The notes under the pieces: generated by a model
The model's database searches: none
The model's input: the letters and a program-made list of their open reading frames with translations, nothing else
Told to the model about the DNA's origin: nothing
Part shown: one piece after another, positions 22,521-36,096 of the stretch
Position numbering within the stretch: position 1 is the first letter of the stretch
Layout: each line of letters starts with the position of its first letter
Made by a program: the position numbers and the translations under genes
Source of the DNA: Nitrospira sp. CR1.2
Lineage (GTDB): Bacteria; Nitrospirota; Nitrospiria; Nitrospirales; Nitrospiraceae
DNA length: 36,096 bases
Assembly: GCA_014055495.1 (NCBI GenBank)
Contig: WIAG01000037.1
Coordinates: 1 to 36,096 of the forward strand
Direction: 5' to 3'

Positions 22521-22907
22521 ATGATGCCCTTGCTCACGGTGTGCGGTCGCGTGTTGTTCCTCCTTCCCCTGGGGCTCGTCGCGGTGGGTTGTACGCAGTC
22601 GGTGCTGCCCACCCCTTCTCCGCAAGAACATCTTGGCATGGGCATCGTGACCGGGACGCTCGGTGCGCAATCACCGGGTGCGGCCTCAAGTAATGAACAG
22701 GCGGGCAGGTCTGTGGTCGGACAGGTCCAAGCACTGGAAGGTGGGGCCTACCTGGTGCGCGACGTCCGGGGCCAGGAACACCGCATTCCCCATGATGAAA
22801 ACACGAAAATCGATCGCCCGGCCCACGTAGGCGATCGCATTCAATCCTGGTTCGACCGGCATGGGCGTGCCGTGTTGATTCGAAGCGCTGATGAGGAGAG
22901 TCGATAG
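22521..22907 (+). CDS. Predicted lipoprotein, function unknown
   Basis: A 128-residue lipoprotein: signal peptide with lipobox VAVGC (Cys24), a Pro/Ser-rich linker, then a small beta-rich domain (VVGQVQALEGGAYLVRDVRG, then RIQSWFDRHGRAVLIRSAD) of a kind seen in periplasmic proteins of unknown role. GGAGG at 22509-22513 lies 7 bases before ATG 22521. It is followed closely by the lytic transglycosylase gene. Confidence 0.75.
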   Translation: MMPLLTVCGRVLFLLPLGLVAVGCTQSVLPTPSPQEHLGMGIVTGTLGAQSPGAASSNEQAGRSVVGQVQALEGGAYLVRDVRGQEHRIPHDENTKIDRPAHVGDRIQSWFDRHGRAVLIRSADEESR

Positions 22908-22941
22908 GAGCCGCCCGGCCGCCGCCGGTCGATTTTTCATC

Positions 22942-23559
22942 ATGCCACAGCCGGATTGGAATCAGCGCTGGAGCCGAGTCGCCCGCGCGTTCGTTCCCCT
23001 CGTCGTGGCCGCCTGCCTGATCGCCGTGATGCCTCCGGCCAGCAGGCTTGCCTTCGATCCCGCGATGAAGTCATACCCCCACCAACCTGCCGCCGAACCG
23101 ATCATCTCCCTGATCGCCACCTATGCCGAGCAATATGCATTGGATCCTGCGCTGCTACAGGCGATCATCAAAGTCGAGTCGAATTTCAACTCCGAGGCTG
23201 TGTCGTCGAAAGGTGCGATCGGACTCATGCAGCTCATGCCGCTGACCGCTGCGGCGTTTCATGTCCTCGACCCCTTCGACCCGAAGGATAATATCCGGGC
23301 CGGAGCAGCGCTGCTCCGGGGACTGCTCGACCGGTTCGGCGGAGATCTTTCGTTGGCGCTGGCGGCCTACCATGTCGGTGAGGCGCGAGTCCGGCAGGCG
23401 GTCGGCGTACCGGCCCTTCCGGCCACGCAGCTCTATGTCGATCGGGTGCTGGGTTACTATGAGCGGTTTCGGACAAGCAGCGAGCAGGCTGCGCTCCGTT
23501 CCGTCGTCCGTCGCCGGTCGACCCAGAGGATGATGGATCAGCCTCTTTCAGGCGAATGA
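22942..23559 (+). CDS. Lytic transglycosylase, SLT domain
   Basis: A 205-residue protein with a membrane segment or signal (about 14-32) and an SLT (GH23) domain at about 50-165. The catalytic Glu79 lies in IIKVESNFN, followed by the family motifs SSKGAIGLMQLMP (88-100) and LALAAYHVGEARV. It cleaves the MurNAc-GlcNAc bond of peptidoglycan with formation of 1,6-anhydroMurNAc. The start is uncertain: ATG 22942 and an in-frame ATG at 22891, overlapping the lipoprotein end, are both possible and neither has a strong RBS. The catalytic domain does not depend on this choice. Confidence 0.88.
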   Translation: MPQPDWNQRWSRVARAFVPLVVAACLIAVMPPASRLAFDPAMKSYPHQPAAEPIISLIATYAEQYALDPALLQAIIKVESNFNSEAVSSKGAIGLMQLMPLTAAAFHVLDPFDPKDNIRAGAALLRGLLDRFGGDLSLALAAYHVGEARVRQAVGVPALPATQLYVDRVLGYYERFRTSSEQAALRSVVRRRSTQRMMDQPLSGE

Positions 23560-24804: not shown

Positions 24805-26211
24805 CTATCGCGTCTGCCAGGATGCGGTCCTGGTCATAATCCCCCACGTCGCCTTCTTCCCGCGTATCCACTGATACAGGCCGATCAACTTCCAGACTGA
24901 GTTCAGCTGCCGGAACCCGAAATTTTCCAGGACGGCGGCGAGCAGCAGTCTTAAGACATCGCGCTGGGTCGGGTAGACGTGAAACGACATCTCTTCCAGC
25001 AGCAACGCGTTCACTGAGAGCAGCAGGCCGAGGCCGATGGCCGCGACGAGCAGAATCGACCAGGCCTGCAGGGAGACCTGCCCCCAGACGAAACTGAGTA
25101 CCAGGAAGCAGTAGCCCAACACTTCGATCACCGGTCCGATCCATTCGAAGACGGCCATAAACGGAAAGGCCAGCCAGCCGATCGTGCCGCCCTTGGGATG
25201 ACACATGAGGTCCAGGTTTTTGGTCAGGCTTTCGCAGAGTCCGCGTTGCCAGCGAATGCGTTGGTTCTTGAGCGTGCGCAAGTCTTCCGGGGCTTCGGTC
25301 CAGCACACCGAATCGGGAACGAAGGTGATCCGGTAAGGCGTCCCGTTCAGCCGTAGATGGCGGTGCAGTCGGACGACCAACTCCATATCCTCCCCGATCG
25401 TATCCGATCGATACCCGCCCACCGTGACGACCACTTCTTTGCGGAAGATGCCGAATGCTCCCGAGATGATGAGCATCGCGTTCAGCGGAGACCAGCCGAG
25501 ACGTCCGAACAGAAACGCGCGGAGGTATTCGACGATTTGAAAGAGTGCCAGCAGGTTGGTGGGGAGTCCGATCTTCGTCAGAAAACCATCCTGGACGCGA
25601 CATCCGTTGGCGATGCGGACGGTGCCGCCGCTCGCGACCGTGCGGTGGTCGTCCAGAAACGGCTGCACGGCCTGACGCAGGCTGTCCGGCTGAAGGATCG
25701 AGTCCGCATCGATGCAACAAAACAGGGGATACAACGACAGGTTGATGCCGGCGTTCAGGGAATCGGCCTTGCCGCCGTTCTCCTTGTCGATGACGCGCAG
25801 ATTGGTATGCAGCGACGAATGGTAAATGGCCCGAATCTCAGCCGTCCGTAACTGGGGATTGTAGGACTCCGGAAACGGGTAGAGTTCGAATTCCCTGCGA
25901 AGCACGTCGATCGTGGCGTCCTTCGATCCATCGTTGACTACGACGATTTCGTATTCGGAATAACTCAGCTGGAGAAGGGACCGGATAGAGCCGGCGATTG
26001 TGGCGGCTTCATTGTAGGCCGGAACCAGAATGCTGATCTGGGGCTCGAAGCCCGTATAACTGCGCGGCAGGCTCTCCAGCACCCGTTCCTGCAGATACTG
26101 CCGCAAGTGCACGATGGAGATGGCGTTCAGGATCAAGTATCCGGCGGTCAGGCCGAGAAAGTAGAGCAGGAACAGCCATTCGGATATTGAAATGAGCGTG
26201 TCTATCCACAT
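24805..26211 (-). CDS. Membrane glycosyltransferase family 2, processive polysaccharide synthase-like
   Basis: A 468-residue inner-membrane GT2. An N-terminal membrane segment (about 8-30) precedes the catalytic domain (58-330) with VPAYNEAATI, VVNDGSKDAT, DAD at 168-170, GED at 273-275 and QRIRW at 317-321, the D,D,D,Q(Q/R)xRW set of processive beta-glycan synthases. Three or more membrane helices follow (about 338-420), then a cytosolic tail. The form is that of PgaC, NodC and cellulose-synthase-like enzymes, which polymerise and export a glycan together. It is divergent from the TIM-barrel, exporter and deacetylase genes; nothing in the sequence fixes the sugar. No PilZ domain is visible. 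Confidence 0.9.
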   Translation of the reverse strand: MWIDTLISISEWLFLLYFLGLTAGYLILNAISIVHLRQYLQERVLESLPRSYTGFEPQISILVPAYNEAATIAGSIRSLLQLSYSEYEIVVVNDGSKDATIDVLRREFELYPFPESYNPQLRTAEIRAIYHSSLHTNLRVIDKENGGKADSLNAGINLSLYPLFCCIDADSILQPDSLRQAVQPFLDDHRTVASGGTVRIANGCRVQDGFLTKIGLPTNLLALFQIVEYLRAFLFGRLGWSPLNAMLIISGAFGIFRKEVVVTVGGYRSDTIGEDMELVVRLHRHLRLNGTPYRITFVPDSVCWTEAPEDLRTLKNQRIRWQRGLCESLTKNLDLMCHPKGGTIGWLAFPFMAVFEWIGPVIEVLGYCFLVLSFVWGQVSLQAWSILLVAAIGLGLLLSVNALLLEEMSFHVYPTQRDVLRLLLAAVLENFGFRQLNSVWKLIGLYQWIRGKKATWGIMTRTASWQTR

Positions 26212-26254
26212 GGATCAGCATCTCGTGGCATCGACCGGCCAGGGCCGAGCCCAA

Positions 26255-27835
26255 ATGAAACGGTCGTCGGCGGTGTTGCTCAGGCTCGCCCTGTGCGCCG
26301 GAGTCGGGCTCGGAGTTCAGGTTCTTCCTGTGCGCGCCGCCGACGTTCCTGTGTCGGAACCCATTCCATCCACCGTCTACGAAATCGAGCTGACGTATAT
26401 CGGCGAGCGCACCGACCCGACCGTGTCCTTCAGCGGACCACCGTCGACTCCGGGTCCTCTACCTTATCGACCGTTTCAGCCCATTCTTGAACTGCGGGCA
26501 AGCCTCGGGGAGGTGCGGCCGTTCGGACCTTGCCGGAGCCGGACGACGAAGTCCGTTGCCGGAATCGAGTTACAGTGGAGTGCCGAAGGAGCGGTCCGTT
26601 GCGGGCAACGTATTGAGTTGCATCAATCCGGGAAACCCGTGGATCTGCTGTCCTACCGGATGTTGCGGATTCGTGGTCGAGCGACCACACCTGTAGTGGT
26701 GGGGATCGAAGATCTTGCCGGAGCCAGGCGTGAGGACAATCGGACGGTCGGCACGTTGCGCGGAGTCTTCGATCTGGAGATTCCGCTGCAGCAGATCGCG
26801 CGTGAAGTCGACCTTCGGCAGGTCACGGCCTTAGTGGTCTCCACCGAGGGCAGCGACGGGCAGGTTGAGCTGGAGAAGATCGACGTCGTGCAGGAACCCC
26901 CGGTCATGCGACCTACAGGGACCGGTTTCTGGGTGTGGAACTACCGTCAGGCGGCGAAGGCCCCCGAGGCGATGTTGGACACCTGTCGTGCACAGAGTTG
27001 TTCACGGGTGTTGATTCAGTTGCCGGCCCAATCCGAGGACGAGGGGATCTGGCGGGAGTACGCACAGCTCCTGGCGAAGGTCCGAGCCGTCGGTATCGAG
27101 CCGTGGGCGCTGGACGGGTATCCCGAAGCCATACAGGAACCGCAACGATTGGCCGATAAGATAACAAGACTGCTCCGTCTCGTATCGCCCGGCCTCCTGT
27201 CGGGCGTGCAACTCGACATCGAACCCTATCTCATGCCGGGGTTTCTTCAGGACGAAGCACAACTTCGCCGGTATCTCAGCGCGATTGGAACGGTGAAGGA
27301 GGCGATACAGGGGCGAGCCAGCCTGTCGCTGGTGATTCCGTTCTGGCTCGCCGTGCCGACCGTCGGCGGGCGCCCCCTGGCCTTTGCGGTGATGGATCTG
27401 GCGGATGAAGTGGCAGTGATGAGTTACCGTACCGATCTCGATGAGGTCCAGGACATCGCCGACGACATTCTGCGGTATGGGTCGGTGAGCGGGATTCCGG
27501 TGTGGTTGGCCGTCGAGACGACGGTCTTGCCGGTTGAGCAGCACGTGGTGTTACGGCGGGAGCGGCAATCGGATCACGCCGAGGTCCTCCTGGATCGCGA
27601 CCACCGTCTGTTACGGTGGCGACCGCTCGGCGAGGCAGGCGGTGCAGGCCTCGACCAGGAGTGGTTCCGGGTTCATCGCCGGTTCACCGTCAGACCGGAA
27701 CGGCTGTCGTTTGCCGGCCGATCGCGTGCGCAGGTGTCCTCGGCGATCAAGGACATACAGAAGAGCACCTCGCATCGGAGTTTTGCGGGGGTGATGATTC
27801 ACGATCTCGATGGATTCCTCGCCCTTGCCGAATAG
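26255..27835 (+). CDS. Secreted TIM-barrel protein, glycoside-hydrolase-like
   Basis: A 526-residue exported protein: signal peptide (MKRSSAVLLRLALCAGVGLG, then VRAAD), an N-terminal beta-sandwich-like domain (about 40-225) and a C-terminal (beta/alpha)8-like domain starting at TGFWVWNYRQ. GVQLDIEPYLMPGF carries a D-x-E pair (D321, E323) at the end of a barrel strand, as in GH18-like and PelA/PgaB-type hydrolases; VAVMSYRTDLDE (late strand) and GVMIHDLDGF also fit that fold. I do not recognise a named family. ATG 26210 is an alternative start. It begins 43 bases from the divergent synthase gene and heads the exporter and deacetylase genes. Confidence 0.75.
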   Translation: MKRSSAVLLRLALCAGVGLGVQVLPVRAADVPVSEPIPSTVYEIELTYIGERTDPTVSFSGPPSTPGPLPYRPFQPILELRASLGEVRPFGPCRSRTTKSVAGIELQWSAEGAVRCGQRIELHQSGKPVDLLSYRMLRIRGRATTPVVVGIEDLAGARREDNRTVGTLRGVFDLEIPLQQIAREVDLRQVTALVVSTEGSDGQVELEKIDVVQEPPVMRPTGTGFWVWNYRQAAKAPEAMLDTCRAQSCSRVLIQLPAQSEDEGIWREYAQLLAKVRAVGIEPWALDGYPEAIQEPQRLADKITRLLRLVSPGLLSGVQLDIEPYLMPGFLQDEAQLRRYLSAIGTVKEAIQGRASLSLVIPFWLAVPTVGGRPLAFAVMDLADEVAVMSYRTDLDEVQDIADDILRYGSVSGIPVWLAVETTVLPVEQHVVLRRERQSDHAEVLLDRDHRLLRWRPLGEAGGAGLDQEWFRVHRRFTVRPERLSFAGRSRAQVSSAIKDIQKSTSHRSFAGVMIHDLDGFLALAE

Positions 27836-27868
27836 GGGTGCCATGTCCGGAGAACAGGGCCGTCACGG

Positions 27869-30229
27869 ATGAACGATCTCCTCAGGTGGATGACACGACG
27901 AACATCTGCAGCCGGTCTGCTGGCGGGGCTTCTGCTCGCGGCGGTCTGGTTCTCTGCGCCCGCCGCGATGATTGCGGCGATGGCGCAAGACGCCGCTCCG
28001 CGCCAGCTTCTGCAACAAGCGAAAGCCTTCGAGGACGAGAAACGGTATGAGGAGGCTATCGAGGCCTACCGCCAATACCTTTTGGCTAGACCGGATCACG
28101 ATGACGTGCGCGCGACGATGGCGAAACTCTTGTCCTGGCAGGGCCAGAGAGAGGAAGCCATCGCCCTCTACCGCGATATTCTGACCCGTCAGCCTCTCGA
28201 TCATGACCACCGAGTCGGCCTGGCCCGGGTCTTGTCCTGGAACAAAGAATTCGCCGACGCGCAGGTCGAATACGAGCGAGTGCTTCACGACGAGCCGGCC
28301 CATGCCGAGGCTCTGGTGGGAATGGGGGATCTGTTGGTGTGGAGCGGCCATCGTGAGCAGGCGATCGCCTACTATGAACGGGCGGTGGCGATCGACGGCG
28401 ACGAGGAGCTTGCGGCGCGACTACGCGTCCTGAAAGCCGAAGTCGAATCCGTTCCTGCGGTCCCGGAGTCGTCCCCTCCTCGAAAAGCCGACTCGGAACC
28501 GCCGGATGGAAGTCAGGCGTTGGAGCGAGGGCGCCGGTTGGAAACCATGCGGCAGACGGAGGATGCCCTTGCCGTGTACCGCGAGGGGCTGCGGCAGTTT
28601 CCGGAGCATGATGAGCTGCGAGTCGCCTTGGCACGGCTGCTTTCCTGGCAGGGCGCTCATGCTGAAGCCGTCGAGTTGTATGGGGACGTACTGGTTCGTC
28701 ATCCGGAGGATCAGGATATTCGTGTGGCGCTGGCGCAGGTGCGCTCGTGGCAGAACCAGTTCGACGAAGCCGACCGGTTGTACCGGGAGGTCCTGCGGGC
28801 CGAACCGATGCAGATGGAGGCTCGCCGCGGTCTGGCCGAGGTGGCACATTGGCGGGGCGACCGTTCGGACGCCCTGCAACGTTATGAGGCGCTCCTTGCC
28901 GAGACCCATGATCCGGACATGGAGGAGCGGGTGCGCGCCATTCGGTCGGAAATGCAGGCCACAGCCGCGCCAGCCGCCGAACAGTCCGCGGCAGGCTCGT
29001 CAACGCAAGAGGAAGGGGCGCGGGCTGTAGCGAGCGCCATGGAACGAGCCACCAGATTCGAGGTGGCCAAAGAATATCGTGAGGCGGAAGGCGTCTATCG
29101 GGAGGCGTTGCAGCAACACCCCGACAACGACGAGATCCGGAGTGCGTTGGCGCGTGTGTTGTCGTGGCAGGGCTTGCACGGGGAGGCGACGGCGTTGTAC
29201 CGGGACGTGTTGGGCCGCCATCCGGAGGATCAGGATATTCGTGTAGCGCTGGCGCAGGTGCTGGCGTGGCAGAACCAGTTCGACGAAGCCGACCGGTTGT
29301 ACCGGGAGGTCCTGCGGGCCGAACCGATGCAGGTGGAGGCCCGTCGCGGTCTGGCCGAGGTGGCACATTGGCGGGGCGACCGTTCGGACGCCCTGCAACG
29401 TTATGAGGCGCTCCTTGCCGAGACGCATGATCCGTCGATTGCGCAGCGCATCGAGGCGGTGAAATCGGAGTTGCTGGTCTCGCCGCGGGCTGCAGTGGGG
29501 CAGGGATTGACCGGACTGCGGCTTCCGTATCGTGACTACGCGAAGATCGGCTACGGTCACTATTCCTATACGAAGAATCAGCCGGACGAGCGGGATCTGT
29601 TGTTTGAAGTCGCCAAACCTTTGGGCAATCAAACCCTGGTCTTGCGGGTGGAACCGATCAATCGGTTCGGGTTCCACGATACGCCGGTCTCGGCGGAGCT
29701 CTATAGCCCCTTGTGGCGGCGAGCCTGGGGGTACGTGGCGGCGCAGGGTACCGTGAATCCGAACTTTTCCCCCAACTACTCCGTGATGGGGGAAGTGGCA
29801 CAAGGATTGGGCGGGTTGCATGCCTCCCTCGCTCCGCTTGAGCTGTCGTTCGGCTACCGGCGACTGAATTACAAGCAGGACGATATCGATCTGCTGATGC
29901 CGGGGCTCACGGTGTTTCTGCCCTTCAATCTGTGGTTGACCGAGAAGATCTACCTGATTCCGAACACGGGAGCGATCACCCTCTCGTCGCAGCTCACCTG
30001 GCGGCCCACGGAACGCGTCCAAGTCTTTGCGTCCGGCTCCTTCGGCACGTCGGGTGAACGGATTGTGGCAGCACAGGATTTTACCCGCGTGGGGAGTCGC
30101 ACGATTCAGGCAGGCATCACGTTTCCGATCAACGAGCGGTTCTCCGCCGAGACGTCCGCCTATTACGAAGACCGCGGATTCCTCTATGTCCGGCGGGGTG
30201 GGAATTTCAGCGTGATCTATCACTGGTAA
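27869..30229 (+). CDS. TPR protein with C-terminal YaiO-type outer-membrane beta-barrel
   Basis: A 786-residue envelope protein. After the signal/hydrophobic leader (13-40), helical TPR repeats occupy about 45-540, marked by the recurring LSWQG or LAWQN and ALAR/ALAQ motifs and the (A/V)YRE pattern. From about 545 a beta-rich domain begins at LPYRDYAKIGYGHYSYTKNQ and ends in GNFSVIYHW, an aromatic C-terminus expected of an outer-membrane barrel. This is the layout of PgaA/BcsC exporters (TPR plus barrel) with a YaiO-like barrel. Bases 28700-28915 and 29219-29434 are nearly identical (about 96%), a recent internal duplication or conversion. It follows the TIM-barrel gene after 33 bases. Confidence 0.85.
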   Translation: MNDLLRWMTRRTSAAGLLAGLLLAAVWFSAPAAMIAAMAQDAAPRQLLQQAKAFEDEKRYEEAIEAYRQYLLARPDHDDVRATMAKLLSWQGQREEAIALYRDILTRQPLDHDHRVGLARVLSWNKEFADAQVEYERVLHDEPAHAEALVGMGDLLVWSGHREQAIAYYERAVAIDGDEELAARLRVLKAEVESVPAVPESSPPRKADSEPPDGSQALERGRRLETMRQTEDALAVYREGLRQFPEHDELRVALARLLSWQGAHAEAVELYGDVLVRHPEDQDIRVALAQVRSWQNQFDEADRLYREVLRAEPMQMEARRGLAEVAHWRGDRSDALQRYEALLAETHDPDMEERVRAIRSEMQATAAPAAEQSAAGSSTQEEGARAVASAMERATRFEVAKEYREAEGVYREALQQHPDNDEIRSALARVLSWQGLHGEATALYRDVLGRHPEDQDIRVALAQVLAWQNQFDEADRLYREVLRAEPMQVEARRGLAEVAHWRGDRSDALQRYEALLAETHDPSIAQRIEAVKSELLVSPRAAVGQGLTGLRLPYRDYAKIGYGHYSYTKNQPDERDLLFEVAKPLGNQTLVLRVEPINRFGFHDTPVSAELYSPLWRRAWGYVAAQGTVNPNFSPNYSVMGEVAQGLGGLHASLAPLELSFGYRRLNYKQDDIDLLMPGLTVFLPFNLWLTEKIYLIPNTGAITLSSQLTWRPTERVQVFASGSFGTSGERIVAAQDFTRVGSRTIQAGITFPINERFSAETSAYYEDRGFLYVRRGGNFSVIYHW
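28700..28915 (+). repeat. Internal direct repeat of the TPR exporter, copy 1
   Basis: 216 bases matching 29219-29434 with 8 mismatches by hand count and no gaps; the offset is 519 bases, exactly 173 codons, so the reading frame is kept. It covers about 72 codons from HPEDQDIRVALAQV to LLAETHDP. The preceding 190 bases are also repeated but much more diverged. Confidence 0.9.
29219..29434 (+). repeat. Internal direct repeat of the TPR exporter, copy 2
   Basis: Partner of 28700-28915. Differences include VRSW versus VLAW and QMEAR versus QVEAR at the protein level. The sharp change from high to low identity at the left edge suggests gene conversion over an older duplicated module. Confidence 0.9.
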
Positions 30230-30233
30230 GTGA

Positions 30234-32180
30234 ATGGAAACTGCCACCATGATCCGTATGGTCGGGGTTTCGGTGCTCACACTGCTCCTGTTCATGGGTG
30301 GTTGGGTCTTCTTCTGGTCGCAATCCGAACAGACCTTCGAGGTGCCGGAACAGGATTTCCACCGGTTCGCCGGTGTGTCCGGGCCCAGGCATGTCACGGT
30401 CGTTCCGCCGAAGGTTCCGACGTCGTGGAGTACGTATGGGAAGGGATCAGGGAGTCGTCTGGCGATTCTCCTGACCGATCCGGATTCCGCCTGGCTCGGC
30501 CTGGCTCATGGGCTCAAGTCGATCGGCGTGCCCTTCCGTATCACGCGAAACGTGCGCGAAGCGCTGTCCCATCAGATGGTGCTGGTCTATCCGATGATTT
30601 CGGGAAAAGTGTTGAATCCGGAGGAATTGCAGGCGCTGGCGGAGTTTCCGAAGGCGGGTGGCACCTTGATCGGCGTGCAGGTGTTGGGGGGAGGGTTGAA
30701 CGGGGTCTTCGGCTTTCGTAACGCCGTCGCCTCGCGTCAGCGTTATGCCATGACGTTGGCGCCGGGCGATCCGTTGCTGACGGAGCTGACCGATCCGGAG
30801 GAGCGGGCGCTGCGAGTCGGGATGCGAGAGAAGCACCTGGAGGTGATGGGCACGTACGGGTACACAGAGGCGACCGCCCCGCTCGTGCGCTTTGACGACG
30901 GGACGGCGGCCGTCACACAGGCGGCGTACGGGCGTGGCCGGGCCTATGCCGTCGGGGTCGATCTTGGCTTTCTCCTCTTGAAGGGGTACAACAATCGCGC
31001 AGACGAACTGGTCCGGAGTTACGACAATCAGTTCGATCCGACGCTGGATGTATGGCTCCGGCTACTCACATCCATCTATCGCGCGGCCGAGGAGCGGGCG
31101 GTCACCCTCGGGACGGTACCGTTCGGGAAATCGCTCTCCGTCATGTTGACGCACGACGTGGATTTTACCCAATCGATGAAGAATGCGGTGGACTATGCGG
31201 AGTACGAACAGAGTCAGGGGGTGGTCGGCACCTATTTCATCCAGGTGAAATATATTCGCGACTACAACGACGACATTTTCTTCAACGACGAAGGGGTGCG
31301 TCATCTGGCGCGCCTTGCCGAACTCGGGATGGAACTGGGCAGTCATACGATTGCGCATTCGAAGGTGTTCGATCAGTTCCCCATGGGAACCGGCCGGGAG
31401 TCGTATCCGTCTTATGCACCATTTGTGAAAAGCCGGAGGACCGCTCTGAACGCCAGCCTGCTTGGGGAATTGCGGGTCAGTAAATTTCTCATCGATCACT
31501 TTTCAGGGCAGGCGATCATCTCGTTCAGGCCGGGGGAGCTGTCGAATCCCTTCGGACTCCCTCAAGCTCTTCTCGCAACGGGGTTTCGATTCAGTTCAAC
31601 CGCCACGGCTAATAACTCCCTCACCCATTTGCCTTATCAGCTGACGTATGACCGCCTGACGGACAGCGAAGTCGACGTATTCGAGTTCCCCGTCACGATC
31701 GAAGATGAAGAGCTGCCGAGGCTGGGCGATCGGCTTCCGCAAGCACTCGAACTGGCGCGGAAACTCAGCCGTTACGGCGGCTCGATGGTGGTACTCATCC
31801 ACCCGAACATTCTCGACCACAAGCTCGCCTTCGAAAAGGGATTCGTGGAAGGGGTGCGTTCCTATACCTGGTTTGGTTCCGTGGGGGAGTTCGGGAAGTG
31901 GTGGGCGGCGCGCAACCAGGTCGAGCTGGATGTGGTGCGCGAGTCGACCGGCATGCGGGTCACGTTGACGGCGCCGAGTCTCTTGAGCGGCTTGACCCTC
32001 GAAGTGCCGAGCGGATGGGAACTCGCACCGTCCGGTTCCTCAGTGCGAGGGCTGAAGCAGCGAGGCGCGATCGTGACGGTGCCCGAGTTGCAAGGCACCC
32101 ACACCGTCCTGTTGCGGCCGCGTACCCCAGCCCCGGTAATCCGGAAGGTCCCGGCGGCGGTCATGAACAATGCGAGCTAG
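30234..32180 (+). CDS. Membrane-anchored polysaccharide deacetylase (NodB/CE4 type)
   Basis: A 648-residue protein: N-terminal membrane anchor (about 6-28), an N-terminal domain with GATase1-like features (about 70-270), and a CE4/NodB catalytic domain (about 300-560). The metal-site motifs THDVDF (about 305-310) and SHTIAHS (HxxxH, about 370-376) and the FRPGEL catalytic-Arg segment are present. A beta-rich C-terminal domain follows. Family enzymes remove N- or O-acetyl groups from glycans, as PgaB and IcaB do for poly-GlcNAc. The start at ATG 30234 lies 4 bases after the exporter stop; ATG 30249 is an alternative with the anchor near the N-terminus. Its stop lies in an inverted repeat. Confidence 0.88.
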   Translation: METATMIRMVGVSVLTLLLFMGGWVFFWSQSEQTFEVPEQDFHRFAGVSGPRHVTVVPPKVPTSWSTYGKGSGSRLAILLTDPDSAWLGLAHGLKSIGVPFRITRNVREALSHQMVLVYPMISGKVLNPEELQALAEFPKAGGTLIGVQVLGGGLNGVFGFRNAVASRQRYAMTLAPGDPLLTELTDPEERALRVGMREKHLEVMGTYGYTEATAPLVRFDDGTAAVTQAAYGRGRAYAVGVDLGFLLLKGYNNRADELVRSYDNQFDPTLDVWLRLLTSIYRAAEERAVTLGTVPFGKSLSVMLTHDVDFTQSMKNAVDYAEYEQSQGVVGTYFIQVKYIRDYNDDIFFNDEGVRHLARLAELGMELGSHTIAHSKVFDQFPMGTGRESYPSYAPFVKSRRTALNASLLGELRVSKFLIDHFSGQAIISFRPGELSNPFGLPQALLATGFRFSSTATANNSLTHLPYQLTYDRLTDSEVDVFEFPVTIEDEELPRLGDRLPQALELARKLSRYGGSMVVLIHPNILDHKLAFEKGFVEGVRSYTWFGSVGEFGKWWAARNQVELDVVRESTGMRVTLTAPSLLSGLTLEVPSGWELAPSGSSVRGLKQRGAIVTVPELQGTHTVLLRPRTPAPVIRKVPAAVMNNAS

Positions 32181-32239
32181 GAGCCTGTCCGAGTAACCCT
32201 TCGTCGCAGCAGCACGGCACTACTCGGACGGACTCCTAG
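32177..32239. repeat. Imperfect inverted repeat spanning two convergent gene ends
   Basis: Left arm 32177-32195 (CTAGGAGCCTGTCCGAGTA) pairs with the reverse complement of 32221-32239 at 17 of 19 positions, with a 25-base loop. The TAG stop of the deacetylase (32178-32180) and the TAG stop of the HEAT protein (32236-32238, minus) both lie in the arm tips. It could be a bidirectional terminator hairpin or a small transposed element that has shortened one or both genes. Confidence 0.75.
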
Positions 32240-33348
32240 GCCGTGCGTGCCTGCGGAGGGATGGCGGGAACCTGGCGTCGACGTTCCACGTTTGACTGCG
32301 CCATAAACGGCAGCAAATGTGCCTGCCCCTCCACGGTCGCGATCCCATTGCAGAGTGTCGTCAGCCGTTCCGTGGTCATCCAAGGCAAATTCGACAGGGC
32401 TTCGGCGGCCCGATAGCATACCCACCAGTGCTCATCCTCCAAGAGGGCGAGCAGCCGTGATTCATCTTCCTCGACGCCGACCTTCCCCAGTGCGGATACC
32501 GCTTGAAGGCGGACGAACCATGTCGGATGGGAGAGATGTGCGCGAATGGTCGCCACGTCCCGCGGATCGCTGCATTCTCCAAAGAGGAACAGGCAGGCCG
32601 CCAACACGTCATCGGACGGCAGGCCTTTTTGAAGCAGCGCCCTGAGCGGCGGTAGCCCGTGTTGGCTCTGGGTCGCCGCAAGGTGGCGGATCAGGCGAGC
32701 GCCGATTTCCGGGGCGGCCTCGCACGCGGCGTTCGCGATCGCTTCGGCGGCGATGTCCGCGCCGGCCGGTTCGAACATGGCGACCACCTTGAGGGGGGAC
32801 CAATCGTTACGGCGACTGATGACGGGAATCAACAGAGGGATCGCCGCCTTCGCATCGATGTGCAGGAGCGCCTTGGCCGCGACCAATGAAACAAAGGCGT
32901 TGTCGGCCTGTAACATCGCGGCGAGGTCGTTCCAGACGGATCGCTCCTGAAGATGCCCGAGCGTCACGACGGCCAGTAATCGGCGGCGGAGGCGTCTGGC
33001 GTGAAGGAGTTGTTTTGCGAGTTGGTCCGTTCCCGTTCGTCGCGCGAGCTCCTTCAGATTCGCGCGTGCCTCTCCCCGAATGGACTCGTAACAATGGTTC
33101 CACAGATACAGCAGCACAAGGCGGTCGCGGTCGGTGAGCGGAGGGAGCGTGTCCGGCACCTCGATCACACATTGGGCGAGCAGCGGCCGCCAGGTCTCGG
33201 TCACGACGCGCCGCCGCCGGTCTTTGTGATGACGTATGAACCGGAGCAGGAGAATGCCCAGCAGGAGCAGACACACGGCCGAGTAGATGGAGATGACGGC
33301 GATGCTGCCGATGCGAAGGGTCAGGTTTGACTGGTCGAGGGCCAGCAC
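32236..33348 (-). CDS. Membrane-anchored HEAT-repeat protein
   Basis: A 370-residue protein with an N-terminal membrane helix (about 12-36) and a cytosolic alpha-solenoid of HEAT-like repeats, for example FVSLVAAKALLHIDAKAAIP and TWFVRLQAVSALGKVGVEED, then HWWVCYRAAEALSNLPW. These are protein-protein scaffolds; in exopolysaccharide loci such a protein could tether the synthase or pass on a signal, which is inference. The start is GTG 33348, with GGGAGG about 6 bases upstream. It follows the response regulator after 22 bases on the same strand and is convergent with the deacetylase. Confidence 0.85.
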   Translation of the reverse strand: MLALDQSNLTLRIGSIAVISIYSAVCLLLLGILLLRFIRHHKDRRRRVVTETWRPLLAQCVIEVPDTLPPLTDRDRLVLLYLWNHCYESIRGEARANLKELARRTGTDQLAKQLLHARRLRRRLLAVVTLGHLQERSVWNDLAAMLQADNAFVSLVAAKALLHIDAKAAIPLLIPVISRRNDWSPLKVVAMFEPAGADIAAEAIANAACEAAPEIGARLIRHLAATQSQHGLPPLRALLQKGLPSDDVLAACLFLFGECSDPRDVATIRAHLSHPTWFVRLQAVSALGKVGVEEDESRLLALLEDEHWWVCYRAAEALSNLPWMTTERLTTLCNGIATVEGQAHLLPFMAQSNVERRRQVPAIPPQARTA

Positions 33349-33370
33349 GCGAGACCTCCCGGTCGGTCGC

Positions 33371-33766
33371 TCACGCCGCCTGGTCGACGAACCGCTTCAG
33401 GCGACTGGTCAGTTCGCGCGGGTTGAACGGCTTGACCATATAATCGTTGGCCCCGTTCTCCAAGGCGCGCTTGATGTCGTGCTCGCTCCCATCGGCCGTC
33501 AACATGATGATCGGCACCTTTCCCCAGCCCTCGAGTGCTCTGAGATAGGTGAGGACTTGCAGTCCGCTAAAAAATGGAAGCATCACATCCAGCAGCACAA
33601 TATCCGGGGGCGCGATGGTACCGGCGAGTTCCTGCGCCTGCCGGCCGTCTTTGGCGTGAATGACATGATAATTTGCCCGTCCCAACAGAAAGGTCAGAAG
33701 GCTTGCGGTGTCCTCCTCATCTTCCACCATGAGCACTCGAAGTTTGGGGATGGCAGGGCTATCCAT
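33371..33766 (-). CDS. Single-domain response regulator (CheY-like)
   Basis: A 131-residue receiver domain with no output domain. The acidic pocket (VEDEEDTAS, Asp16), phospho-acceptor Asp60 in IVLLDVMLP, switch Thr90 and conserved Lys112 in VKPF are all intact. Such proteins act by protein-protein contact or as phosphorelay intermediates. It sits upstream of the HEAT gene with 22 bases between them, probably an operon, and downstream on the same strand of an Hpt protein and hybrid kinase. Its partner may be the HEAT protein or the neighbouring synthase; this is inference. Confidence 0.92.
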   Translation of the reverse strand: MDSPAIPKLRVLMVEDEEDTASLLTFLLGRANYHVIHAKDGRQAQELAGTIAPPDIVLLDVMLPFFSGLQVLTYLRALEGWGKVPIIMLTADGSEHDIKRALENGANDYMVKPFNPRELTSRLKRFVDQAA

Positions 33767-33980: not shown

Positions 33981-34316
33981 CTATTCATACGTGATCTCCA
34001 CGCGAGCAAGGTACGATGCCAAGGTCGCGAGGTGTGTGCGAATCGTCGCTTCGGCGGCGGTCTTGGCCGCCTGTTCCAGCTCTGCTGCGATGGTGGTCAT
34101 GGCGTGAAAGCCGTAACTGCCGCTGACTCCCTTCATGCCGTGGGCGACCTGCTTGATTGTGTCGAAGTCGTGTCTGGAGACGGCTTCGGTCATCACCGTG
34201 ACTTCTCTGTTCCGGTTGGCCATGAACTTAGGAATCAGCGGTTCGAACGACGCGTCCACCAGGACCGTGATGGGTCCGGCCCCGACGGCGGATGTCTCTG
34301 GCGCCATCTCGCTCAT
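33981..34316 (-). CDS. Histidine phosphotransfer (Hpt) domain protein
   Basis: A 111-residue protein with an Hpt four-helix core; the phosphorylated His59 lies in QVAHGMKGVSGSYGF. It starts within the stop of the hybrid kinase (ATGA, 34313-34316), so the two are co-translated. It should relay phosphate from the kinase's receiver domains to a downstream response regulator, most simply the single-domain regulator 214 bases away. The upstream region of that regulator (33767-33980) is non-coding and may hold its own promoter. Confidence 0.9.
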   Translation of the reverse strand: MSEMAPETSAVGAGPITVLVDASFEPLIPKFMANRNREVTVMTEAVSRHDFDTIKQVAHGMKGVSGSYGFHAMTTIAAELEQAAKTAAEATIRTHLATLASYLARVEITYE

Positions 34317-36096
34317 GGGGCTGCCTGCTCCCGAGGGTCCGGAGTTGCATAGCGCCGCACGGTGTCGAGCAGCGTCTGTTTCTTGATGGGTTTTGTCAGG
34401 TGAGCGGTGACGCCGGCCGCGCGAGCCGTCTGGATGTCTTCCTCGAAAGTACTGGCCGTCAGCGCAACGATCGGCGTAGCCTGACGCCCTTCTGCCGCCT
34501 CCCAGGCGCGAATGGTGCGTGTGGCCTCATATCCGTCCATGACCGGCATCTGAATATCCATCAGCACCAGGTCGTAACGGCCGGATTGAAATTTGTCGAC
34601 CCCTTCGACGCCGTTCTTTGCCAGATCAAGTTGATAGGGCGTGGGTTTCAGGAACAAGGTGATCAGAACTCGATTATCCTCCATGTCCTCGACGAGCAGC
34701 ACCCTGAGGGGCCGAGGGTCAGATGCGTCGGCTTGCCCCGGCACCGGAGGCTGCGTGGTTGGCGGCGGCGAGGGGAGCCGAAGCGCGCTCTCCACCGCGC
34801 TCAGGAGTCGTGCGCGACTGAGTGGTTTGTACAGGTAGCCGGCGATGGTCATGTTGTCGGTACGGCGGCTGGTGGCGCGGCGCACCTCAGTGGTCTGCAG
34901 CACCAGGGGAATCGGATGGTCTCCCGCTCGGTGTTCTATGGCCTCCGCCAGATGCATGCCGTGCTGATCCGGCAAGTGGCTGTCGATGATGGCGAGGTCG
35001 ATGGGTTCGTGTCGGGCTCGAGCGGCCTCGATGGTCGCCAGGGCGGCCGCACCGGTGTGAGCTTCGATGATGGCGGCGCCTAGGCGGGAGAGGTGGGCCT
35101 GAATCATCATCCGGCTGACGGGGTTGGCGTCGACAACCAGGATGCGGCGGCCGTGGAGATCGATCAACGGCGAGTCCGCTGGGGAGGCCGTCGCAGGCGC
35201 GGCTGCGGGGGAGAGCACGAACATAAAGGTGCTGCCCTTTCCCAGTTGGCTCTCGACGGTGAGCCGGCCTCCCATCAACCCGACGAGACGTTGTGAAATA
35301 CTCAGGCCAAGTCCGGTGCCCCCGTAGGTTCTGGTCGTGGAGGAGTCGATCTGCGTGAAACTGTCGAAGATGGTCGCGATCCGGTCGCTCGGGATACCGA
35401 TGCCGGTATCCGAGATCGAGAACCGCAGGGCGCCGGGTGTCTCCCTGTCAGGAGTCGGTTCCACACGAATCACGACTTCTCCCCGTTCCGTAAACTTCAG
35501 GGCGTTCCCCACTAGGGTCACAAGAACCTGCCGCAGACGTGTTGGGTCGCCGAGGATCGAAGCGGGGACATCGGGATGGACAAAAGCGAAGAGGGCGATC
35601 TGTTTCGCATGCGCGCGGATGGCCATGGATTCCGCGGTCCGATCGACGAGTTCATGGAGATCGAACGGGATCGAGTCCATCTCCAAGCGTCCGGCCTCCA
35701 GTTGCGACAAGTCCAGAATGTCGTTGAGCAAGTTCAGCAGGCTTGAAGCGGCGTGGCTGAACCGTTTGACATATTCCTGTTGGACGGGCGAGAGGGCTGT
35801 TGCTTGCAGCAGATCGGCCATGCCGACAATGGCATTCATCGGGGTTCGAATCTCGTGACTCATGGAAGCGAGAAATTCGCTTTTTGCCTTCGCCGCCGAT
35901 GGGATGCGGGTCCGGCTGATCCAGAGGAGCCAGTGGTCTCCGTCGCCAGGTTTGGTGAGGAGCGTCAGTGAAACGTCCGTGGCGGTCGAGTGACCGTCCT
36001 TACCTCGGCCGACGATCTCTCCCTGCCAGCGGCCCGTCTCCTCGACGAGGGGGAAGACTGTGGTTTCGATCCTGGCGATCCAGGGATCGAGGTATA
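34313..36096 (-). CDS. Hybrid sensor histidine kinase with two receiver domains, 5' end missing
   Basis: The frame is open to the end of the window, so the N-terminus lies beyond it. The visible order is the C-terminal part of a PAS domain (TGRWQGEIVGRGKDGH at about 30-45), HisKA with the phospho-acceptor His in FLASMSHEIRTPMN, HATPase_c with N-box VGNALKFT and G-boxes SDTGIGIP and GGTGLGLS, a first receiver (LAIIDSHLPDQHG) and a second receiver (LVLMDIQMPVMDG) with the usual KP switch. The first receiver is a weaker match. It begins as a PAS-sensing cytosolic or membrane kinase; the input signal is cut off. Co-translated with Hpt. Confidence 0.93.
   Translation of the reverse strand, partial: YLDPWIARIETTVFPLVEETGRWQGEIVGRGKDGHSTATDVSLTLLTKPGDGDHWLLWISRTRIPSAAKAKSEFLASMSHEIRTPMNAIVGMADLLQATALSPVQQEYVKRFSHAASSLLNLLNDILDLSQLEAGRLEMDSIPFDLHELVDRTAESMAIRAHAKQIALFAFVHPDVPASILGDPTRLRQVLVTLVGNALKFTERGEVVIRVEPTPDRETPGALRFSISDTGIGIPSDRIATIFDSFTQIDSSTTRTYGGTGLGLSISQRLVGLMGGRLTVESQLGKGSTFMFVLSPAAAPATASPADSPLIDLHGRRILVVDANPVSRMMIQAHLSRLGAAIIEAHTGAAALATIEAARARHEPIDLAIIDSHLPDQHGMHLAEAIEHRAGDHPIPLVLQTTEVRRATSRRTDNMTIAGYLYKPLSRARLLSAVESALRLPSPPPTTQPPVPGQADASDPRPLRVLLVEDMEDNRVLITLFLKPTPYQLDLAKNGVEGVDKFQSGRYDLVLMDIQMPVMDGYEATRTIRAWEAAEGRQATPIVALTASTFEEDIQTARAAGVTAHLTKPIKKQTLLDTVRRYATPDPREQAAP

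Follow-up and report, generated by a model that had tools for sequence, protein, structure and literature searches.

The window analysed here, a whole contig of 36,096 nucleotides (WIAG01000037.1) from the 4.06 Mb genome of Nitrospira sp. CR1.2, raises the question of whether one of its gene blocks encodes an exopolysaccharide system and, if so, whether that system is already known. A first-pass annotation, made from the sequence alone, had listed six genes between positions 24805 and 33766: a GT2 synthase with the D,D,D,QxxRW set, a secreted TIM-barrel protein with a DxE motif, a TPR plus YaiO-type barrel exporter, a CE4 deacetylase with an intact metal site, a membrane HEAT protein and a CheY-like regulator. 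All six were found where that annotation placed them, with orthologues conserved in related genomes, and the description of each held up, that of the deacetylase with a refinement. Sequence comparisons and structure models suggested that the block probably encodes a new variant of the synthase-dependent exopolysaccharide systems, which would make a partly deacetylated N-acetylhexosamine polymer. By sequence and model, the parts list of such systems was present and co-conserved: an inner-membrane synthase, a periplasmic modification enzyme, a TPR protein with an outer-membrane barrel, and a co-subunit or control part.

Gene content and layout

The interval first noted contained the six genes and stopped short of the end of the conserved block, which runs past 33766 into an Hpt gene and a hybrid kinase gene. 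The features are as follows.

24805–26211, minus strand: PgaC-like processive synthase of family GT2 with a membrane helix at the N-terminus and two or more at the C-terminus (Pfam, NCBIfam, motifs)
26192 or 26255–27835, plus strand: secreted protein with an N-terminal beta domain and a GH18-clan-like TIM-barrel (structure model, motifs)
27869–30229, plus strand: TPR array and YaiO-type outer-membrane beta-barrel, likely exporter (PF19413, TIGR04390, TPR_19)
30234–32180, plus strand: membrane-anchored periplasmic deacetylase with a GATase-like domain, a CE4/CE18/CE21-type barrel and a C-terminal beta-sandwich (structure model, motifs)
32236–33348, minus strand: membrane-anchored HEAT-repeat protein, repeats predicted to be cytoplasmic (HEAT_2, topology)
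33371–33766, minus strand: stand-alone CheY-like receiver without an output domain (Pfam Response_reg, 2.8e-25)
33981–34316, minus strand, beyond the interval first noted: Hpt phosphotransfer protein (Pfam Hpt, 4.3e-10)
34313–35863, minus strand, beyond the interval first noted: hybrid histidine kinase, HisKA-HATPase-REC-REC (Pfam domains)
22891–23559: lytic transglycosylase gene, upstream, conserved in congeners

The six genes form three strand blocks rather than a single operon. The synthase gene is divergent from the TIM, TPR-YaiO and deacetylase genes, and the HEAT and receiver genes, which share their strand with the Hpt and hybrid kinase genes, are convergent with the deacetylase gene. 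In the hybrid kinase, the HisKA domain stands at the very start and no sensor domain was evident.

Synthase and exporter

The synthase matched Pfam Glycos_transf_2 (3.1e-24), and its motifs D94-G, D168-A-D170, G-E274-D275 and Q317-R-I-R-W321 were invariant across 18 homologues, down to 38% identity. Its best NCBIfam model was TIGR03937, the PgaC equivalog, at 152.5 bits against a cut-off of 422.3, which none of the genome's genes reached. When the window proteins were compared with the Pga and Yai proteins of E. coli, only the synthase gave a clear sequence match, first to PgaC (28% identity, E 1e-26) and second to YaiP. It is the most PgaC-like synthase of the genome, yet far under the PgaC cut-off.

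The TPR-YaiO protein scored 82.3 bits with TIGR04390 (cut-off 32), was above the cut-off of PF19413 and matched TPR_19 at 2.1e-51; no other YaiO barrel was found in the genome. Its score with TIGR03939, the PgaA equivalog, was 79.4 bits against a cut-off of 366.65 and came from the TPR repeats. Within the TPR array, a 300-base stretch occurs twice, the copies being 82% identical and separated by 519 bases. Among congeners, the protein falls into two length classes, of about 785–795 and about 610–640 residues, which suggests gain or loss of a block within the array.

Deacetylase and TIM-barrel protein

Of the first description of the deacetylase, the intact metal site stood: H307-D308-x-D310, H371-xxx-H375, R432, E490-D491-E492 and H523 were invariant in 31 homologues. 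The Pfam CE4 model PF01522 reached 15.8 bits, under its gathering score of 23.1; the protein nevertheless has the CE4 fold with its catalytic residues, in a domain layout like that of PelA and Agd3. Besides a membrane helix, the structure model (predicted local distance difference test, pLDDT, 88.7) showed the PelA/Agd3-type layout of GATase-like domain, CE barrel and beta-sandwich. Its CE core aligned with CE4-like enzymes (Z 23.3 to 3rxz). Among the matches listed, only PelA (9cgy: 443 residues, Z 16.9, root-mean-square deviation 6.2) and Agd3 (6nwz: 473 residues, Z 14.8, root-mean-square deviation 8.8) gave long multi-domain alignments, the high deviations being an effect of whole-chain alignment. 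At the sequence level, a profile of the deacetylase searched against the PDB at E values up to 10 matched neither PelA nor Agd3, and it gave no match worth the name with E. coli PgaB or YaiS. In the model, the domain architecture resembles PelA and Agd3 more than PgaB. A published account of PelA (PMC12022489) reports a D-x-D with a preceding histidine and no MT3 arginine; the window deacetylase has the D-x-D plus an invariant FRPG arginine, R432, of the MT3 type.

The TIM protein had no Pfam or NCBIfam match. Its N-terminus is signal-like, and a gene start at 26255 gives a clean signal peptide; a start at 26192 would overlap the start of the divergent synthase gene by 20 bases, and the stretch 26192–26254 is conserved in several congeners. 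The structure model (pLDDT 82.5) showed a GH18-clan-like barrel, and residues 217–526 matched Cwp19 best (Z 19.6), followed by GH18 chitinases (Z 18.7 for the GH18 entry 4wiw) and the C-terminal hydrolase domain of PgaB (Z 16.7). The N-terminal beta domain was barely covered in the structural comparison and was assigned no fold. D321-x-E323 was invariant in 20 homologues, as was M389-x-Y391 in the homologues compared. Relative to the GH18 motif DxxDxDxE plus MxY, the D-x-E and MxY are kept, with Ser and Gln in place of the earlier Asp residues, so that a reduced form of the GH18 motif may be seen in the stretches GVQLDIEPY and MSYR; from this reading we infer that the substrate may carry a 2-acetamido group. 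Only one sequence relative of solved structure emerged from the profile search: 10yv, which its depositors named a putative GH97.

Conservation within Nitrospirota

Sixteen of the 25 same-genus genomes had the deacetylase, against none of the 16 sampled from other genera in the order; in the sample of the phylum, it occurred in only two genera, both of the family. All 15 homologous same-genus loci kept the order transglycosylase–aminotransferase–GT2–TIM–TPR–deacetylase–HEAT–receiver–Hpt–kinase as far as the contigs reach, some with an extra receiver. The Hpt gene was conserved in congeners, as was the hybrid kinase, in some only partly. In 16 same-genus genomes checked for the synthase, TIM and deacetylase genes, 11 had all three, four had none and one, a draft assembly of 1,030 contigs, had partial synthase and TIM genes. 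The three genes are thus present or absent together in the checked genomes. Pairwise identities of the synthase, deacetylase, HEAT and TPR proteins correlated across loci (Spearman 0.77–0.92).

The set is also kept in the second genus of the family, two genomes of which have the HEAT gene between the TPR and deacetylase genes and in the same direction. In this genus, the transglycosylase and aminotransferase genes do not adjoin the set, and this speaks for their being neighbours, not members, of it.

Nitrospira UW-LDO-01 and relatives carry a lone deacetylase, without synthase, near genes for a DabA-type inorganic-carbon transporter (L108, 9884–11767); such loci were set aside, as the system is not carried there. 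In some Nitrospira, an ABC transporter takes the place of the synthase next to the TIM and deacetylase genes (L121, 6304–11836). In one congener the deacetylase frame is interrupted (L040, 7917–9731), by decay or assembly error, and the synthase, TIM and TPR genes are whole; a second interrupted copy was found (L133). A record titled uncultured Nitrosospira (L110) encodes a deacetylase 56% identical to that of the window and close to the Nitrospira copies, and its title may be a mislabel. A plasmid search with the deacetylase gave no match.

Recurrence in distant taxa and the HEAT–receiver module

A search for the gene order in other genomes showed that the set recurs across the family, in Alphaproteobacteria and in two metagenome-assembled genomes (MAGs), one labelled Aquabacterium and the other from Bacteroidota. 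In the scan of named genomes, 51 loci came up, among them loci of Alphaproteobacteria, Bacteroidota and further groups. Hellea balneolensis DSM 19091 (L137) has a tight operon whose genes, overlapping end to end, encode Hpt-receiver and TPR-YaiO proteins, HEAT, GT2 and deacetylase. Linkage of synthase, HEAT, YaiO, deacetylase and receiver was found there; at L117, the Aquabacterium-labelled MAG, with an interrupted GT2 frame; at L128, a Sphingomonadales MAG; at L125, an alphaproteobacterial MAG whose YaiO lacks TPR; and across L130 and L157, two contigs of the Bacteroidota MAG that each end inside the deacetylase gene and also carry kinase, Hpt and receiver genes. Homologues at L137, L117, L128, L125 and L157 also passed TIGR04390. 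In another alphaproteobacterial genome, TIM, deacetylase and GT2 genes were adjacent, and the TIM protein was a true relative (E 2.5e-24). Because the synthase and deacetylase are linked again at about 40% identity, the recurrence of the set is not due to chance. Besides the starting genomes, the deacetylase was found in one of 384 and none of 368 genomes of two proteobacterial classes, by a first-look filter that may miss some; the system thus appears to be rare in these classes.

The HEAT protein matched HEAT_2 (7.1e-20) and has one N-terminal transmembrane segment, with 3–7 Lys/Arg after it and 0–1 before it in eight homologues. Since this basic stretch follows the helix, the repeats should face the cytoplasm. 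The protein keeps the same neighbours in distant taxa, receiver genes adjoin the set at L125, L128, L137 and L157, and an Hpt gene or domain also occurs at L137 and L157. Because HEAT and receiver are linked with the synthase, YaiO barrel and deacetylase again far from Nitrospirota, both belong to the system, and the HEAT protein is, judged by this linkage, a core part rather than a bystander.

Proposed mechanism

In the proposed mechanism, the GT2 synthase would polymerise an N-acetylhexosamine homopolymer and move the chain across the inner membrane. In the periplasm, the anchored CE4/CE18-like enzyme would strip part of the N-acetyl groups; the TPR-YaiO protein would guide the chain and export it through the outer membrane, and the GH18-clan-like hydrolase may clear or trim chains. 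The predicted cytoplasmic HEAT domain would sit beside the synthase and, together with the receiver fed by the Hpt protein and hybrid kinase, could switch synthesis on or off, replacing PgaD or PilZ parts. Of the whole mechanism, such control through the HEAT protein is the most novel element and also the least certain. No c-di-GMP binding was identified among the system parts by sequence or model. A further proposal, that the locus represents a new class in which the HEAT protein and the kinase–Hpt–receiver phosphorelay act directly on the synthase in place of c-di-GMP sensing, with a polymer not yet described, is put forward only tentatively.

Several observations weigh against an N-acetylhexosamine exopolysaccharide system of this composition. 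Because the synthase is only 28% identical to PgaC, it could make a different beta-linked polymer. In distant taxa, identity is just 15–23% for the HEAT and TPR homologues, whose orthology therefore rests on position and architecture, and the TIM gene was not seen at every distant locus. In addition, some Nitrospira have the deacetylase alone or with TIM only, and these two proteins can thus serve other roles.

Comparison with known systems and alternative explanations

The first-pass annotation had compared the parts to Pga, with the deacetylase and hydrolase as separate proteins and a YaiO-like barrel, and had noted that no Pga, Bcs, Alg or Pel gene order matches exactly. The differences from Pga were borne out: deacetylase and hydrolase are two genes, and the barrel passed TIGR04390. 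No member reached a Pga equivalog cut-off. The likeness to E. coli PgaABCD nevertheless suggests a rival explanation, namely that this is a divergent poly-GlcNAc locus with PgaC and PgaA equivalents and PgaB split into two genes, making ordinary poly-N-acetylglucosamine (PNAG). The synthase is closest to PgaC, the TPR protein with its barrel, the deacetylase and the TIM-barrel hydrolase correspond to the Pga parts list, and the TIM fold resembles the C-terminal domain of PgaB. However, PgaB joins CE4 and GH153 in one chain, the scores lie far below the PgaC and PgaA cut-offs, and the deacetylase lacks a PgaB sequence match and carries the PelA/Agd3-like extra domains. The barrel is of the YaiO type, a HEAT protein and a phosphorelay are added, and no PgaD was recognised among the block's open reading frames of at least 90 residues, where a small divergent one could be missed. 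We therefore consider an ordinary PNAG locus rather doubtful.

The deacetylase points in another direction, to a Pel-like or galactosaminogalactan (GAG)-like poly-GalNAc system in which PelA would be divided between two proteins and PelF replaced by a GT2. By fold, it shares its GATase-like, deacetylase and beta-sandwich domains with PelA (CE21 plus GH166; Pel) and Agd3 (CE18; fungal GAG), and the base/metal-ligand D-x-D spacing is as reported for PelA. A TIM-barrel hydrolase belongs to these pathways too, and is separate in Agd3/Ega3 clusters as in the window. In contrast, PelA joins hydrolase and deacetylase in one chain and lacks the MT3-type arginine, no sequence relation to PelA or Agd3 was detected in the PDB profile search, the window synthase is a GT2 with QxxRW, the hydrolase motif is GH18-like and the barrel is YaiO rather than a PelB-type protein. 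Pfam and NCBIfam named no PelD, PelE, PelF or PelG in the block, although no genome-wide search with Pel models was made. Pel was rejected as the family for want of a sequence match in that profile search, and a split Pel- or GAG-like system is unlikely. Under the preferred reading of a new synthase-dependent variant, the polymer itself could still prove PNAG-like or Pel-like.

A cell-wall or surface-glycan remodelling locus, in which the deacetylase and hydrolase act on peptidoglycan and the GT2 is a minor glycosyltransferase, would suit the conserved lytic transglycosylase gene upstream, the many peptidoglycan deacetylases among the CE4 fold matches and Cwp19 as the best TIM match, but is very improbable: a synthase of the processive type and a TPR outer-membrane barrel are constantly linked to these genes, and the transglycosylase was not seen in the distant loci.

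The parallel to E. coli yaiO–yaiP–yaiS drawn in the first-pass annotation proved weak. In both, a YaiO barrel does have a GT2 gene and a gene for a putative deacetylase as neighbours, with a distant GT2 match, but YaiP matched less well than PgaC, YaiS showed no relation to the window deacetylase, and the annotated cluster lacks TPR, TIM, HEAT and receiver. Xanthomonas XagABCD and the stalk-linked xag-like clusters are likewise uncharacterised synthase-type exopolysaccharide loci. For the stalk clusters, a BcsB-like protein has been reported, with HEAT and YaiO not mentioned (PMC4643136); the Xag and stalk clusters were set apart as a different system by these published descriptions only. A full-text literature search, covering few subscription journals, found no account of the gene set. 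With this and the recurrence of the gene order elsewhere, the idea in the first-pass annotation passed the test that it had itself set.

Significance

If the proposed system is real, one more synthase-dependent system would be added to the handful known across bacteria, with possible phosphorelay control of a polysaccharide synthase via a HEAT adaptor. Its two separate enzymes, the PelA/Agd3-like deacetylase and the GH18-like hydrolase, could be applied to biofilms. Nitrospira are key nitrifiers and often form dense microcolonies and flocs in biofilms of wastewater and drinking water. As far as our literature search showed, the matrix polymer behind these aggregates has not been established, and the conserved candidate locus offers a direct target for identifying it.

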